A stretch of 64,000 nt of DNA from Monodelphis domestica (taxonomy: Eukaryota > Chordata > Mammalia > Didelphimorphia > Didelphidae): assembly GCF_027887165.1 (NCBI RefSeq), contig NC_077233.1, forward strand, positions 184,015,114 to 184,079,113, given 5' to 3'. The notes under the pieces are model-generated. The model ran no database searches and was not told where the DNA came from. It saw nothing but the letters and a program-made list of their open reading frames with translations. Positions 46,411 to 64,000 of this stretch are shown here, one piece after another; position 1 is the first letter of the stretch, and each line of letters opens with the position of its first letter. The translations under genes were made by a program, and so were the position numbers.

Positions 46411-47200
46411 CTGTCAACATGGAATCTAGAAACCCTAAACTTGTAGCCTAGTAAGATCTGATGAACCCCAAGTTTTAGAACTAGATTTTTTTAAACCCTC
46501 ACCTTCCATCTTGGAGTCAATACTGTGGACTGGTTCCAAGGCAGAAGAGTGGTAAAGGCTAGGCAATGGGGGTCAAGTGACTTGCCCAGGGTCACACAGC
46601 TGGGTTAGAACTAGATTATAAATTGGAGACCCCAAAGCTTGTCCATGTTCCCGGTTCCTGTGGGAATCCATCCTGAAGGGAATCTCAGGGGAGCAGTTTC
46701 AGACAGAATAATGGACCCCTAGGTAAATGTGCTATATTTAGCATATGCTAAGGACCCTCTTTGTTTTAGGTAGTCTCCCCTATTGTATCAGAGACCCTTT
46801 CCCAAGAAGATCCACACCTGGGCTGGAACCATCCTTTAGTATCCATTGTTAGCAGCCCCTTCCCTTACACCCTAGCCTCTGGCTATGATTCCTTTCCCAG
46901 GCTTGATTGTATGCTGTCAGTATAGTTTGAACACTCCCGTTTTCTTGGTATCTTTCCCAGCCCCTGGATCTCCCCAAAAGGTATCAAGGTTCCCCAAATT
47001 CTTTTGTTCCTTGGAGTGGACATCTAGTGCTGTGTCCTTCCCAGGGATAACATCCCCAGAGGGCAGGCTTTATACCCTGTAAAAGTTGTGGCACCAGACT
47101 GAGTAAAGGGCCAAGTATTGGACTCATCCCTATCCTGATTAAACCGTGGTTTTTCTGACTACTTTGGTAGTTCTGTGTTATTTCCAGGTTAACACTTCCC
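46411..47200 (+). mobile_element. LTR copy A, with a nested SINE
   Basis: This segment recurs at 47951-48535 in the same orientation: 'acatggaatcta', 'ttggagaccccaa', 'cccaagaagatccacacctggg', 'ctagcctctggctatg', 'tttgaacactcccgttt', 'ggtttttctgac'. Two diverged direct copies of about 600 bp fit LTRs of an old endogenous retrovirus-like element. No internal gag or pol sequence is seen between them. Ends are approximate. Confidence 0.6.
46475..46617 (-). mobile_element. 5'-truncated SINE with exact target duplication
   Basis: Reverse SINE 3' half (about 46488-46604; 'aaaccctcaccttccatcttgg' to 'cacacagctggg'), flanked by the 13-bp duplication ttagaactagatt at 46475-46487 and 46605-46617. It lies inside LTR copy A. 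Confidence 0.93.
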
Positions 47201-47482
47201 TTCAGTTTACCGTCTTCGAGCTGCCTGGACTACGAGCACTAAGATTAAATGGTCACAAAACTGCCTGTCAGAGGCAAAGAATGATCCTAGGTCTTCTTGA
47301 CTCCAAATCTGGCTTTCCACGCATTCTCCCCCAGGGCCATTCAAGATAGACGATGGAAACTTACAATAACATGCCTGAGGAGAGACTCTAAATGAATGCT
47401 CTAATGCAAATACCAACAACATGGAAATGGGTTCCAATCAAGAAACTTTCAATAAGAGCAGCACTTCAGCTATGTATTACCC
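47201..47482. mobile_element. SINE/MIR scrap and L1 3'UTR fragment
   Basis: 'taaatggtcacaaaactgcc', 'gatcctaggtcttcttgac' (about 47240-47330) fit a reverse SINE/MIR. 'agactctaaatgaatgctctaatgcaaa', 'taccaacaacatggaaatggg' (about 47385-47450) match L1 3'UTR blocks at 56806-56860 and 59963-60010. Confidence 0.6.
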
Positions 47483-47914
47483 TGGAAACTAGAGGTCCCA
47501 CACTTGCAGCTTGGAGGGATTTGGTGATCCCCAGTTTATTTAGTTGGGAGGTTTTGACCTTGTCACAGAGTTCCTCCCAGAGGGAAAGTCCTACTTCACT
47601 GGTCTCAGGCTAACCATAGACTTTGAGTTAGTTCTGAGTGGGGATGGCCAATCCCATCGGATGCCTCTTTTTGCCTTAGAAGCTTCTCCCATTGTATCAC
47701 ATCTCCCTTTCGGGGATTGAACTTGGGACCTTCAATTTGTGAGACTGGCACGCTACCCACTGTGCTATAACTCAAGGTCTATGGTTAGCCTGAGACCAGT
47801 GAAGTAGGACTTTCCCTCAGGGAGGAACTCTGACAAGGTCAAAACCTCCCAACTAAATAAACTGGGGATCACCAAATCCCTCCAAGCTGCAAGTGTGGGG
47901 ACCTCTAGTTTCCA
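47483..47914. repeat. 148-bp inverted repeat (hairpin) with a tRNA-like loop
   Basis: Arm 1 (47483-47630) and arm 2 (47768-47914) are reverse complements differing by two substitutions, a 1-bp indel and a 2-bp indel, by direct alignment. The loop (47631-47767) starts with sequence like the LTR middle ('ccttagaagcttctcccattgtatca', compare 48158-48178), then a tRNA-like block. Arm 1 also aligns weakly with the 5' part of LTRs A and B, so arm 1 plus loop may be a third LTR fragment. Confidence 0.9.
47709..47776 (-). other. tRNA-like pseudogene segment in the hairpin loop
   Basis: On the minus strand it reads tagcacagtgggtagcgtgc (A-box and D-arm, with gcac/gtgc pairing), ccagtctcacaaattgaagg (anticodon-arm-like, close to elongator tRNA-Met but with CAC in the loop), and ggtcccaagttcaatcc (B-box and T-loop). 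The acceptor stem does not pair and the T-stem is poor, so it is not a functional tRNA gene. Its 5' end overlaps arm 2. Confidence 0.6.
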
Positions 47915-47950
47915 CGTTGACACTACTTAGAGCCAGATCACTCATTTCCT

Positions 47951-48535
47951 TGGTCGACATGGAATCTAAGAGAACCCCAAGTTTTAGGGTCAGCTTAGAA
48001 ACTGGAGACCCCAAGTTCATCTCTGTCCCCGTGAGAGTTCACCCCAAGGAAGTTTCAGACTTAGCTAGACTCCGACAGAACAATAGACCCTAAGGGAAAA
48101 GATCATCTCAGTTAGGTGGGGCTAAGCAAATGCTAAATTTCCTTTTATCTTAGAAGTTTTTCCCATCATATCAAGCCTGTTTCCCAAGAAGACCCACACC
48201 TGGGCAAGGGTCATCTTTTTAGTGTCCATTGTAAGGCAGGCACCCTAGCCTCTGGCTATGGTTCCTTTTCCCAGCTTCCTTGTATCCTGTCCCTGCAGTT
48301 TGAACACTCCCATTTCCTTGTAACCATGGTAATGTCAAAGGATCATATTTCCTGGTCCCTCAGTTCCCCTAAAGGGTATATGAGTTCTCCAAATTCTTTT
48401 GTCCTTTGGAGCTGTCTTCTAGCGCAGTGGCACTCTCAGAACTTTGGTGGCTGGAGCTGCCAGAGTCTGGGGAATTGGTTTTTCTGACAATTTAATAGTT
48501 CCGAGTTTTTTTCCAGTTAGTACCTTCATGACTTC
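47951..48535 (+). mobile_element. LTR copy B
   Basis: Direct repeat of LTR A (see 46411-47200): 'gacatggaatctaag', 'actggagaccccaag', 'cccaagaagacccacacctggg', 'ccctagcctctggctatgg', 'gtttgaacactcccatttcc', 'ccaaattcttttg', 'ggtttttctgac'. Many substitutions separate the two, so the pair is old. Confidence 0.6.
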
Positions 48536-49499
48536 TAGTTCATAGTCAACTTTCAGCTTAAGGACGCCTGGGCAGACAAAAAGATAGCATATCATTAAAA
48601 TATCCCTGAATAGAGCCTCTACTATTTACTCTACAAGCAAAAAAAAAACAAAAACAAAAAAACTTGGAGGTGGGGATAGGAAAGAAACAAAAATAGCAAA
48701 GCAAAAGCCAAATTCATTCCATTTTGGAAGATGATATAGTGAAAATACATCTCATGCCTAGTTTTCCATATCTTTATAAAATGATTTCCCCCCCAGAGTT
48801 TTCTTTTTTCTTTCCCTTGGTTCCTAGAATACAATAGACATTTAACTCCAGTATTTAAACAACAGTTTATTTTTCTTCAAATGTTTAAAAGTTACTACTA
48901 ATAGGACCTTAAGCTTTTTTGATAGAAGAGCTTTCAACCCATACTCTTCCTTCCTTTCTTAATTTTAGTTTCTTCCTTAATTTTTTCTGCCTTCCTCCTC
49001 TTTTTCCTTTTAGCCCTACTTTCCTTCTTTCTTCTTTTGCAATTCTTTCCTTCCTTAATTCTTCCTTCCTTTTTTTTAATTCCTAGAAAAACCACAACAC
49101 TTGCATTTGCAACCAGTAGCTTCCCAGCAGGGCACAAAAAAAAAATGCCACTTGTTTCATGAGCTGGCCTGTTATAGCCCAGCAGGAGGAAAAACACTAG
49201 CTAACTCCTAGAACACTGGATGCTGAATTATTGTTATTGTCAAGTCTAGGGAGATTCCAGATCTCCTTTGACTTCAGGGGGACCTGGAGGTGTAGTCTCT
49301 ATCCTTGGACACAAATGGTATCACATGAACCAGGCACGAAAGAGAACCACTGATTTTTTTTTCTCTTTTGGGCATACATAATCAGAGACTTAAGCAGTAT
49401 GAGTAGATCCCAGAACCAAGCCTCTGGAAGTGAACTCTTCCTCTTCACCAAGGCAACTTAGTACTGCATATATTTATAACTAAACAGTGTTCCTTTTTT
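48536..49499. other. Unique DNA with T-rich and A-rich runs
   Basis: An A-rich stretch lies at 48641-48662, and a TTCC/TTCTTT-rich stretch at about 48950-49080. No gene or repeat family is recognised. Confidence 0.4.
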
Positions 49500-57106: not shown

Positions 57107-57601
<495 letters not shown>

Positions 57602-58327
57602 AAAATAATAGTTCCCACATTCACACTTGTTTAAGCTCACTCTTCCTAGAGAGGAGTGAAAGTATAACGGAGAGTAGACCCCTCAGTGTAGGTTGGGGAT
57701 TATATCAATCATGTTAGACTTGAATCTACTCTTCCCAGGGGAGAGTGCTCCCCTGCTTTGGGGGAGTGAAGATTGAAGACAGTTGAATGCCTTGCTCAGG
57801 GTCAAACAGGCAAGTATGTACCAAAACTAAACTAAACTACTTTGGCACCCACAGCAGTTCACTTTTCCATTGAGCCACATTCCCAGACCAATGATACTCT
57901 ATTGGAACCAAGAAGTCGTAGGGTGGTACAATGGCAAGACCCTTGATCTGGAAGTCTCAGGACCTGATTACAAATTCTGTCAGAGCCACATACTTCCTTT
58001 GTCCTCAGATTAGTCATTTAACCCACTGAGCCTTAGTCCCCTGATCTATAAAATGAAGAGTTTGGACGAGATGATCTTTAAGTTCCCTCCAACTATAAAC
58101 CTGTAATTGTACGATCCATTTAACCATGTCATTGACTATTTCATGGAAGGCACTGAATGTTTTGCCTTACAGCTACAGACTATTCATCCTGTACAACTCT
58201 CATCCATGTCTTCCCATGAGTTTGCCTAGAGGAGGGCAGATCTGACATATTCTATTTATATTGCACGGATATTATCATTGAATCACCTAGCTGACCCTTC
58301 TTTCTTGCTACTGATGGGCTCATTTTT
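57602..58327. other. Intergenic DNA with one MIR element
   Basis: The MIR is at about 57915-58110, plus: 'ggtggtacaatggcaagaccc', 'ttagtcatttaacccactgagcc', 'ctgatctataaaatgaag'. The rest is unrecognised. Confidence 0.5.
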
Positions 58328-58531
58328 CTTAACCCTTACCTTCCATCTTTGAACCAACCAATACTATATATTAGTTCCAACACAGAAGAATAGTAAGGGT
58401 TAGGCAATGGGGGTTAAGTGACTTGCCCAGGGCCACATAGCCAAAAAGTCTCTGAGGCCAGACTTGAACCCAGGACCTCCTGTCTTTAGGCCTGACTCTC
58501 AATCCAGTAAGCCATCTAGCTGCACCCCCCT
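58328..58531 (-). mobile_element. tRNA-derived SINE
   Basis: 'ttaacccttaccttccatc', 'caatgggggttaagtgacttgcc', 'ttgaacccaggacctcctg', 'ctctcaatccagtaagccatc'. Confidence 0.88.
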
Positions 58532-58637
58532 CCATTTTTTTTTCTTTGCTGAGATTTTATTGTCACTTCATAAGCACTTGTTTGCAATGAGTTGTTGCCT
58601 GTTGGTACCTACCATTCACTTCTCCATTATCCTTTGG

Positions 58638-60159
58638 GTCATCAAAACAATTTGGTACTGGCTAAGAGACAGAAAGGAGGATCAGTGGAATAGACTTGGG
58701 ATAAGTGACCCCAATAAGACAGTATATGACAAACCCAAAGAGCCCAGCTTTTGGGACAAAAACCCACTATTTGACAAAAATTGCTGGGAAAACTGGAAGA
58801 CACTGTGGGAGAGATTAGGTTTGGATCAACACCTCACACCCTACACTAAGATAAACTCAGAATGGGTGAATGACTTGAACATAAAGAAGGAAACTATAAG
58901 TAAATTAGGTGAACACAGAATAGTATACATGTCAGACCTGTGGGAAGGGAAAGACTTTAAAACCAAGCAAGACATAGAGTCACAAAATGTAAAATAAACA
59001 ATTTTGATTACATCAAAATAAAAAGGGTTTGTACAAACAAAAACAATGTAACCAAATTGAAAAGGGAAGCAACAAATTGGGAAACAATTTTCATAACAAA
59101 ATCCTCTGACAAAGGTCTAATTACTCAAATTTATAAAGAGCTAAATCAATTGTACAAAAAATCAAGCCATTCTCCAATTGATAAATGGGCAAGAGACATG
59201 AACAGGCAGTTTTCAGCCAAAGAAATCAATACTATTAATAAGCATATGAAAAAGTGCTCTAAATCTCTTATAATCAGAGAGATGCAAATCAAAACAACTC
59301 TGAAGTATCATCTCACACCTAGCAGATTGGCTAATATAACAGCAAAGGAAAGTAATGAATGCTGGAGGGGATGTGGCAAAGTCCGGACACTAATCCACTG
59401 CTGGTGGGGTTGTGAGCTGATCCAACAATTCTGGAGGGCAATTTGGAACTATGCCCAAAGGGCACTAAAAGACTGTCTGCCCTTTGATCCAGACACAGCA
59501 CTGCTGGGTTTGTACCCCGAAGAGCTAATAAGGAAAAAGACTTGTACAAGAATATTCATAGCTGCGCTCTTTGTGGTGAAAAAATTGGAAAATGAGGGGA
59601 TGCCCATCAATTGGGGAATGGCTGAACAAATTGTGGTATATGTTGGTCATGGAATACTATTGCGCTCAAAGGAATAATAAAGTAGAGGAATTCCATGGAG
59701 ACTGGAATGACCTCCAGGAATTGATGCAGAGCGAAAGGAGCAGAACCAGGAGAACATTGTACACAGAGACTGAAACACTGTGGTACAATCGAAGGAAATG
59801 GACTTCTCCATTGGTGTCAATGCAATGTCCCTGAACAATCTGCAGGGATCTAGGAGAAAAAAAAAACACTATCCGCAAGCAGAGGACAAACAATGGGAGT
59901 AAAAACACTGAAGATAAGCAACTGCTTGACTACAGGTGTGGAAGGGACAGGAATGAGGAAAGACTCTAAATGAACACCCTAATACAAATACCAACAACAG
60001 GGTTTGAATCAAGGTCACATGTGATACCCAGTGGAATCGAGTGTTGGCTAGGGGAGGGGTGATGGGAGGGGAGGAGGAAAAGAAAAGGATCTTTGTTTTC
60101 AAGGAATATTGTTTGAAAATGACCAAATAAAATAATGTTTAAATTGGAAAAAAAAAAGA
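58638..60159 (+). mobile_element. 5'-truncated L1, younger copy
   Basis: The body begins gtcatcaaaacaatttgg and ends in an A-run at about 60150-60159. Two long frames remain: about 58638-58996, then 59057-59677, with a third piece at 59592-59834 after a frameshift. They carry conserved ORF2 C-terminal motifs: [52 protein letters not shown] and CWWGCEL (the zinc-knuckle-like Cys region), and LLGLYPEE. The 3'UTR differs from that of the copy at 55489, so it is another subfamily. No clear target duplication was found. It is not coding-competent. Confidence 0.9.
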
Positions 60160-62001: not shown

Positions 62002-62807
62002 ACAAGCTATATTTCCAAGGAAATCCCCAGGTAGGGGCTTGAGTCATAAAGAGATTTAGTAAATCCTTAAGACTAAATTTGATTTGTGCAAACTCAAAGC
62101 TCTGGAATTATAGTGGTAATTGGCTTCACTTCCCAGAATAGCTTCCTGAAGGTAAAATCTGTTTCACTTTCGTATTTGTATCCCTACTACCTAGCATAAT
62201 GCCTGACACATAGTAGGGACTAAATAAATGCCAACTGGTTAACTGGGCAAAAGCACTGTGAGGCAGGAGACTTGGTAGGGATGCTACATACTTCCCAATC
62301 TTGTCTAGGATCGTCTCATCCTAATCAGTTGTCAGCTAGAACTCTGACAAAACAGTTCAAAAGCAATCACGCTTTCCATGGCCTAAGAGTTAATAGCATC
62401 CCATTTCACTACACAAACACACTCACCTATGATGAACTCTCAAACCTTTCGAGATGACATGTAAGCAGTAATTTCTGTCTTTGGTGAGGTCCTGGGTTTT
62501 CTTTGGAGAAGGGAGCTGCAGGTGAAGAAACATCCTTTAACCTTAAAGGCTGGAAACTTTGCAATTTATAGTTTTAGAAAGTTGCCTGGGGATGCTAAGA
62601 GTTTGTGATCTGCTTGGAGTCAGCCAATATGAGTCAATGGCACAGGATTGGAATCAGATTCTCCCTTCTATGAAGCACTCGAACCTCATTTATTTATAAC
62701 TCATTTCAATTTATTCACTTATATTATTCAGGTGATTGTTTCAAGAAAAGTAACTGAATATGTAAAAAGAATAGGACCTTAATTTTCCTATAAGAAATCA
62801 AAATTTG
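62002..62807. other. Unique DNA with an L2 terminus
   Basis: The L2 end is at about 62120-62240: 'tgtatccctactacctagc', 'gcctgacacatagtagggac', 'taaataaatgcc'. The rest is unrecognised. Confidence 0.5.
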
Positions 62808-63528
<721 letters not shown>

Positions 63529-64000
63529 AGAAAAACCTTGCTTTTTAACAATCCATGTAAAGATGTCTAAAGATGGTGGGCATAGTCTACTATAGTCTAC
63601 TGTCTCTTACTGTGAATATAATCTAGGGCTCAGTCCTTAGCAATGATTAATAAATTCTTATCAACTATTGGCTGATCAAATGCCTTATATATGCAAAGTT
63701 GTGTAAAGAACATCATTGAGAACCTGTCTGATCATAAAAGGTGGGTCAAGCATCAGGGATAATGAATGGAAAGTCTGAGTGCTGCCCTGGTACATACTAA
63801 CCATGAAAAATATCATTGGAAGACTCCAGCATATCATTGGGTGGCTCCTTTACTAAGGTGTATTTATACAAGATGTGATCAAGAATTGCACAAGAGGGAT
63901 GAGAAGGCATGAAAATGATTCACCTACACTGATGAGATCAAGGATTCAAGGAAGTATTAAAATAGTCTAAAGATAGTTTTGTTCTTATTACTCTTCCTCA
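63529..64000. other. Unique DNA at the window end
   Basis: No gene or repeat is recognised. Confidence 0.4.

Follow-up and report, generated by a model that had tools for sequence, protein, structure and literature searches.

What kind of event leaves two almost identical inverted arms around a tRNA-like loop in the midst of old, much more diverged LTR sequence? The question is raised by a palindrome in a 64,000-nucleotide stretch of the Monodelphis domestica genome (contig NC_077233.1, positions 184,015,114 to 184,079,113; hereafter the window). A sequence-only reading of this locus had offered two accounts, a recent inverted duplication or arms kept alike by hairpin-templated repair, and had seen in the junctions a resemblance to template switching during reverse transcription.

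Structure of the focal palindrome

Aligned over 149 columns, the two arms (148 and 147 nt) differ by two mismatches and by gaps of 1 nt and 2 nt, in agreement with the two substitutions and two small indels first counted, and the remaining inverted repeats listed for the window (at least 50 nt, within 5 kb) reach at most 86% identity. As RNA, the focal unit folds at -331 kcal/mol, whereas shuffled sequences average -141 (z -36.6; none of 100 shuffles equal). The element and its surroundings comprise the following features, in window coordinates:

46605 to 47194, plus strand: LTR A, a separate LTR copy without about 70 bp at its start
47369 to 47441, plus strand: L1 3'UTR scrap left of the element, from blast matches to two other L1 copies
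47473 to 47482: outermost left bases, degraded or outside arm 1
47483 to 47630, plus strand: arm 1, the first ~150 bp of an LTR U3, from alignment to arm 2 and 39 other copies and, via other copies, to the non-palindromic LTRs L073 and L096
47631 to 47704, plus strand: first half of the loop, an LTR-like continuation of the U3, colinear with LTR A, LTR B and other copies
47705 to 47767, minus strand: second half of the loop, elongator tRNA-Met about positions 8-71, antisense to arm 1, with the same segment in other copies
47768 to 47914, minus strand: arm 2, the inverted U3 start, from alignment to arm 1, with arm 1's 13-bp and 3-bp deletions
47915 to 47922, minus strand: right terminus (..CGTTGACA), beyond the near-identical core, from the aligned ends of other copies
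47923 to 47926: CTAC, the expected site of the right 4-bp target duplication, from the duplication length of the family
47951 to 48545 (right end approximate), plus strand: LTR B, a separate related LTR-like copy

The core at 47483-47914 stands as first delimited, but the aligned ends of the other copies place the right boundary at 47922, 8 bases farther. No perfect duplication of 4-8 bp was detected around the focal copy, and a possible partner for CTAC is TTAC at 47477-47480, which would fit at three of four bases; the focal copy is without a clear target site duplication (TSD) because its left end is degraded. The L1 3'UTR just upstream was correctly recognized. A resumption of this L1 3'UTR to the right of the element was not supported, as 1313 and 409 of 2000 shuffles did as well.

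The composition of the loop, an LTR-like piece joined to a tRNA-Met-like piece, likewise held up. The second half of the loop is identical to human elongator tRNA-Met at 50 of 63 aligned positions (score 35; at most 13 in 300 shuffles), and this tRNA scored highest among the 15 compared. The match starts at 47767, the base adjoining arm 2. The Rfam tRNA model gave this piece 20.8 bits, under its cut-off of 29, ARAGORN made no tRNA call there, and an Rfam scan of the window returned no match at the gathering cut-off.

Elsewhere in the window, two overlapping open frames at 58422-59677 resemble by eye the end of L1 ORF2 and are followed by L1 3'UTR sequence at about 59861-60155. Long low-complexity purine/pyrimidine arrays at 1335-1995, 57194-57682 and 62724-63606 form simple-repeat open frames on both strands.

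A dispersed family of palindromes

The genome (3,586,138,614 bases in 13 contigs) was searched with the 432-base focal unit, and the best 40 of 1656 first-look candidates were scored, yielding 39 copies besides the focal one; 14 of these 39 span query positions 1-432 at 77-91% identity. A second search with the copy L013, in which the best 40 of 2378 candidates were scored, added 11 new places, for a total, with the focal place, of at least 51. Truncated copies are among them, and one, L024 (C8:222.37 Mb), is a segmental duplicate of L023 (C8:222.84 Mb) with the same palindrome and flanks 99-100% identical. The genome-wide check that had been proposed for an arm-loop-arm family thus found one, dispersed over at least 50 places besides the focal locus, which rules out a recent inverted duplication here. 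Near-identical arms amid diverged repeats would suit a one-off event, whether such a duplication or an assembly artefact, but the unit occurs at these other places and most of its bounded copies have TSDs, so that this explanation, refuted for the unit, is left with almost no chance of being right.

In the alignment of the focal copy with the 39 others, complete copies run from TGTCAAC(A/G)TGGAATCTAG to the inverse, ending in GTTGACA. Arms measure ~165 bp in a long form and ~120 bp in a short form, with the loop alike in both: further LTR sequence, then elongator tRNA-Met in antisense, from about position 8 to 71. Of the five tRNAs compared, elongator tRNA-Met was the best match in all 39 loops tested (the focal one and 38 others, L024 being excluded), mostly at positions 8-71. 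The anticodon loop CTCATAA is retained in 31 of these 39 loops, A box and B box patterns occur together in six, and the loop of L013 matches tRNA-Met at 55 of 59 positions. The founder probably carried a real tRNA-Met, minus its first seven bases and the CCA end.

A partial palindrome, L124 (C4:421167879-421168136), lies about 1 Mb from L013 (C4:422181266-422181736) and shares 98% identity with it across 263 bases, other copies reaching at most 91%; this may reflect recent partial copying between the two neighbours.

Termini and target site duplications

Both sides could be bounded, with ends set by the terminal motif alone, in 31 of 39 copies, in which the 4-bp flanks agree at 98 of 124 bases (mean 35.6 and maximum 55 when right flanks were shuffled), L023 and L024 being counted separately in the 31 although they are a single insertion. 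A perfect 4-bp TSD was present in 12 of the 31, whereas lengths of 2, 3 and 5-8 bp yielded at most one perfect match each. The second set, 11 new copies of which 10 were bounded, gave agreement at 36 of 40 bases and perfect 4-bp matches in 8 of 10, with 1, 0 and 0 perfect matches at lengths 3, 5 and 6. Under a stricter search for ends, 12 copies were bounded, three of them perfect, seven agreeing at three of four bases, one at one and one at none. The duplicated sequences vary between copies (GGAG, AAGA, CCCT, CTAC, AACC and others). Use of the TSDs as a clock against arm divergence was dropped: TSD mismatch in the first set was 21%, against 8% for the arms, and several first-set copies may have no true TSD, the second set standing at 10%.

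A TSD of fixed 4-bp length is the trace of an integrase or an integrase-like transposase. The latter would apply if the family were an integrase-type, Ginger-like DNA transposon, or its MITE, whose transposase recognizes the long inverted ends and moves the element by cut and paste. Ginger1 elements have TGTNR integrase-type ends, terminal inverted repeats of 40-270 bp and a 4-bp TSD of CCGG or CCGT, as far as the part of the source consulted describes them (PMC2836005), and the palindromes share the type of ends, the long terminal inverted repeats and the TSD length. However, the TSDs here vary, none of those listed being a perfect CCGG, CCGT or ACGG, and the palindrome ends belong to LTRs, some of which are followed by a motif like a primer binding site (PBS), so that we regard a Ginger-like transposon as improbable.

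LTR relatives and the source of the arms

The LTR A set comprised 5407 first-look candidates, of which the best 40 were scored. In the 11 of 19 loci that could be bounded, the family is 651-685 bp long, runs from TGTCAAC to GTTAACA, and has 4-bp TSDs in which 38 of 44 bases agree and 7 of 11 are perfect. We take this TSD length to place the related endogenous retroviruses as ERV1-like. In two loci found by LTR similarity, L053 and L062, the LTR leads into AA, then TGG, then an internal start common to both, an arrangement that is PBS-like; the same succession occurs in L119, one of 20 loci retrieved with a pattern that itself required TGG after the LTR, and L076 matches the internal start of these three. 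The PBS-like motif presumably reads as tRNA-Arg-like. For L098 and L099, a provirus with paired LTRs was not found.

The arms themselves were traced through L073 and L096, two loci fetched with LTR B, in which a normal LTR is 75-87% like the palindrome arm and its continuation and runs on without tRNA or inverted arm within the stretch examined. This non-palindromic match identifies the palindrome arms as the first part of a U3.

Two arrangements around the focal copy were rejected. LTRs A and B do not form the LTR pair of a single provirus, since their similarity is 65% and each belongs to its own large repeat set; nor is LTR A cleanly inserted in a SINE between 46605 and 47262, as it ends at 47194 and is without the first ~70 bp of its family. 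Elsewhere, palindrome-like sequence directly adjoins an LTR A copy in L066 (about 2055-2611), either a nested insertion or a related form, and arm-like LTR sequence stands head to head with an LTR B copy in L083 (about 1186-1480).

The palindromes could themselves be ordinary solo LTRs, of a retrovirus family whose LTR has as its U5 end an inverted copy of U3 plus a tRNA scrap and which multiplied normally. The TG..CA ends, the 4-bp TSD and the solo state are all typical of solo LTRs, the arm sequence comes from U3, and related LTR families exist. Against this, the palindrome has a U3 at both ends with no U5 end seen, a central tRNA piece and a hairpin layout, and none of the 395-bp flanks of 39 palindrome copies matches the internal start of the LTR A family, although other internal starts are possible; the matches that do occur between flanks of different copies are, by eye, common repeats. 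Arms in U3 and U5 would also not be expected to change together, yet those of the palindromes do, as set out below, and we consider the solo-LTR explanation rather unlikely.

Concerted change of the arms

One case of such joint change is a ~45-bp deletion near the outer part of both arms, between two CCCCA repeats. When 51 copies were classified on untrimmed sequence, with score limits changed from those of the first pass, the deletion was found in both arms of 16 copies, in neither arm of 28 and in one arm only of none, seven being unclassified. The first pass, on the trimmed arms of 41 copies, had given 22 long, eight short and no mixed copies, with ten unclear in both arms and one in a single arm. 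The short subfamily consists of L028, L030, L035, L036, L038, L040, L041, L042, L122, L123 and L125-L130.

Smaller differences behave alike. Among 30 copies, recurrent alleles stood in both arms 123 times and in one arm 110 times; after 1000 shuffles of arm 2 between copies, both-arm alleles had a mean of 31.7 and a maximum of 58. With both sets pooled (41 copies, including the badly aligned L124), 239 both-arm alleles compare with a shuffle mean of 61.8 and a maximum of 106. In the 31 copies whose arms each measure at least 110 nt, the focal copy and L024 included, arm distance averaged 8.1% within a copy and 12.9% between copies in any pairing of arms; the nearest neighbour was the arm's own partner for only 21 of 62 arms, and sister arms were joined in the tree in only 14 of 31 copies. 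Private changes were found 174 times in one arm and 25 times in both, a mostly one-armed pattern that is expected for decay after insertion. The shared alleles and the symmetry of the deletion, on the other hand, imply that changes in the source reach both arms before or while the source spreads. The proposal that the arms are kept alike by templated copying thus stands in substance, given both-arm alleles above those of shuffles and a ~45-bp deletion never seen in one arm alone.

Divergence and age of the focal copy

At 98.6%, the core arm identity of the focal copy is the highest among long alignments, followed by L013 at 96.0%, with L026 lowest at 85.4%; three very short arm alignments (18-25 columns) reach 100%, and the focal copy ranks third of 41 once its degraded outer bases are counted. 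This value stands at the upper end of a continuous distribution and reflects the youth of the copy, copying between the arms in its lineage, or both. The substitution rate used was 2.2e-9 per site and year. At this rate the core arms of the focal copy would be about 3 million years old (0.4-11), and average family copies roughly 20 million years by like arithmetic, although arm-to-arm copying after insertion would render these ages too young.

Such copying can be followed in the nearest relative of the focal copy, L009 (91%). The 13-bp and 3-bp deletions are present in arm 1 only of L009 and in both arms of the focal copy, whereas at arm positions 24 and 107 the focal arm 2 retains the state of L009 arm 2, a pattern indicative of copying between arms in the focal lineage that left two sites unconverted. 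The two copies differ by 2.7% in arm 1 and by 9.1% in arm 2; within the loop, the U3 half differs by 1.4% and the tRNA half by 15.9%. Variability is higher in the tRNA part throughout the family (20% vs 11%), but this does not seem enough to account for the mosaic, nor is the mosaic explained if the focal copy was simply born by templating on one arm. A-to-G editing of the focal tRNA was considered and rejected, since such changes are not in excess in this part when all copies are counted. The focal arms thus bear out copying between arms, one arm holding deletions that its relative has in the other only; this may have been repair after insertion or may have taken place during copying of the element.

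The same patchwork, arm 1 deletions beside arm 2's own state at positions 24 and 107, is what would be left if the symmetry of this element arose solely from gene conversion or replication template switching between the arms of resident copies, and hairpins can be both created and mended by template switching, at least in the parts of the two reports consulted (PMC8794818, PMC8604942). However, the predominance of one-armed private changes indicates that resident copies are not strongly homogenized, and mixed long/short copies are absent. Conversion of resident copies as the sole source of symmetry is accordingly judged unlikely.

A model for origin and spread

The palindromes examined have outward-facing U3 starts at both ends, a tRNA-Met in the centre, TG..CA termini, a 4-bp TSD and arms that change together. 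We favour, with moderate confidence, the reading that the focal hairpin is a copy of a dispersed, non-coding mobile element that descends from an endogenous retrovirus and whose palindrome was spread by retroviral enzymes. The founder would have arisen during reverse transcription: a plus strand initiated at the U3 end would, while being extended, have switched at a short homology from U3 to tRNA-Met and copied the tRNA back to about position 8. The strand would then have folded back at the meeting point of tRNA and arm 2 (TTGAGTTA) and used its own U3 as template as far as the terminus, giving a hairpin with a retroviral integration end on its open side. Copied into a linear duplex, such a hairpin would have a U3 end on both sides, and the integrase of a helper retrovirus could insert it; both the hairpin-DNA intermediate and the helper are putative. 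Fold-back at each round of copying would explain why changes of a lineage appear in both arms.

By eye, U3 and tRNA overlap in CCCTTT at the first junction. A wider pairing between U3 loop and tRNA beside the arm end, which could have guided the fold-back, was no better than chance, being equalled in 10% of shuffles and 6% of window segments. Several observations weigh against the proposal: the tRNA piece is without the CCA end, the PBS-like motif of the related LTRs presumably reads as tRNA-Arg and not Met, the focal copy has no clear TSD, the mosaic of focal copy and L009 does not fit a simple arm-templated birth, and the minority of arms and copies with partner or sister arms closest (21 of 62 and 14 of 31) also counts here. 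Template switching during reverse transcription, suggested at the outset, is plausible for the founder, but a part in it for the L1 scrap is not supported, the match to resumed L1 on the right being within chance.

A more specific reading, which we put forward tentatively and hold to be more doubtful than the general one, is that the palindromes are retroviral parasites multiplying via self-primed hairpin DNA, one U3 arm being folded back round a tRNA-Met loop, so that copies would be born symmetric, with U3 ends ready for integration and with no need of a PBS, polypurine tract or U5 end of their own. No host function is indicated for the palindrome.

Comparison with known systems

DIRS elements are not known to make a TSD, and tRNA-derived SINEs have the tRNA head at the 5' end, an A/T-rich tail and a longer TSD, whereas in the palindrome the tRNA is central, the ends are LTR and the TSD is 4 bp. 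DIRS-1 is described, in the portion of the source available to us, as an autonomous element with inverted LTRs and a tyrosine recombinase, for which rebuilding of lost ends from an internal complement was proposed (PMC5633606); the inverted LTRs and the proposed end rebuilding recall the palindromes, whose 4-bp TSDs instead point to an integrase. In template-switch hairpins one arm templates the other and arms are homogenized, but the cases in the excerpts consulted are local mutations with arms of 7-16 bp (yeast table), in contrast to a dispersed family with ~165-bp arms (PMC8794818, PMC8604942). LINE-1/tRNA chimeras also join a retroelement to a tRNA piece, mostly antisense, though with tRNA halves and, in checked cases, TSDs of 9-19 bp according to the sections consulted (PMC13174262), whereas the palindromes have 4-bp TSDs and most of the tRNA. 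A title cited in PMC5371799 states that Ty1 does not inherit its primer sequence. Opossum LTR elements were surveyed with LTRsift, and the palindromic family is not named in the part of that survey consulted (PMC3582472). Among titles and abstract openings no description of such an element was recognized, although Dfam or Repbase may already name the family, and collections of phage, viral and prokaryote sequences gave no match.

Implications

If the proposed origin is correct, retroviral integration can spread DNA with a U3 at both ends, and a repeat family can originate from an accident of reverse transcription involving a host tRNA. As long hairpins of natural origin, the copies keep in their paired arms a record of copying from arm to arm, which they could serve to measure, and they could also be used to ask whether such hairpins feed germ-line small-RNA pathways.
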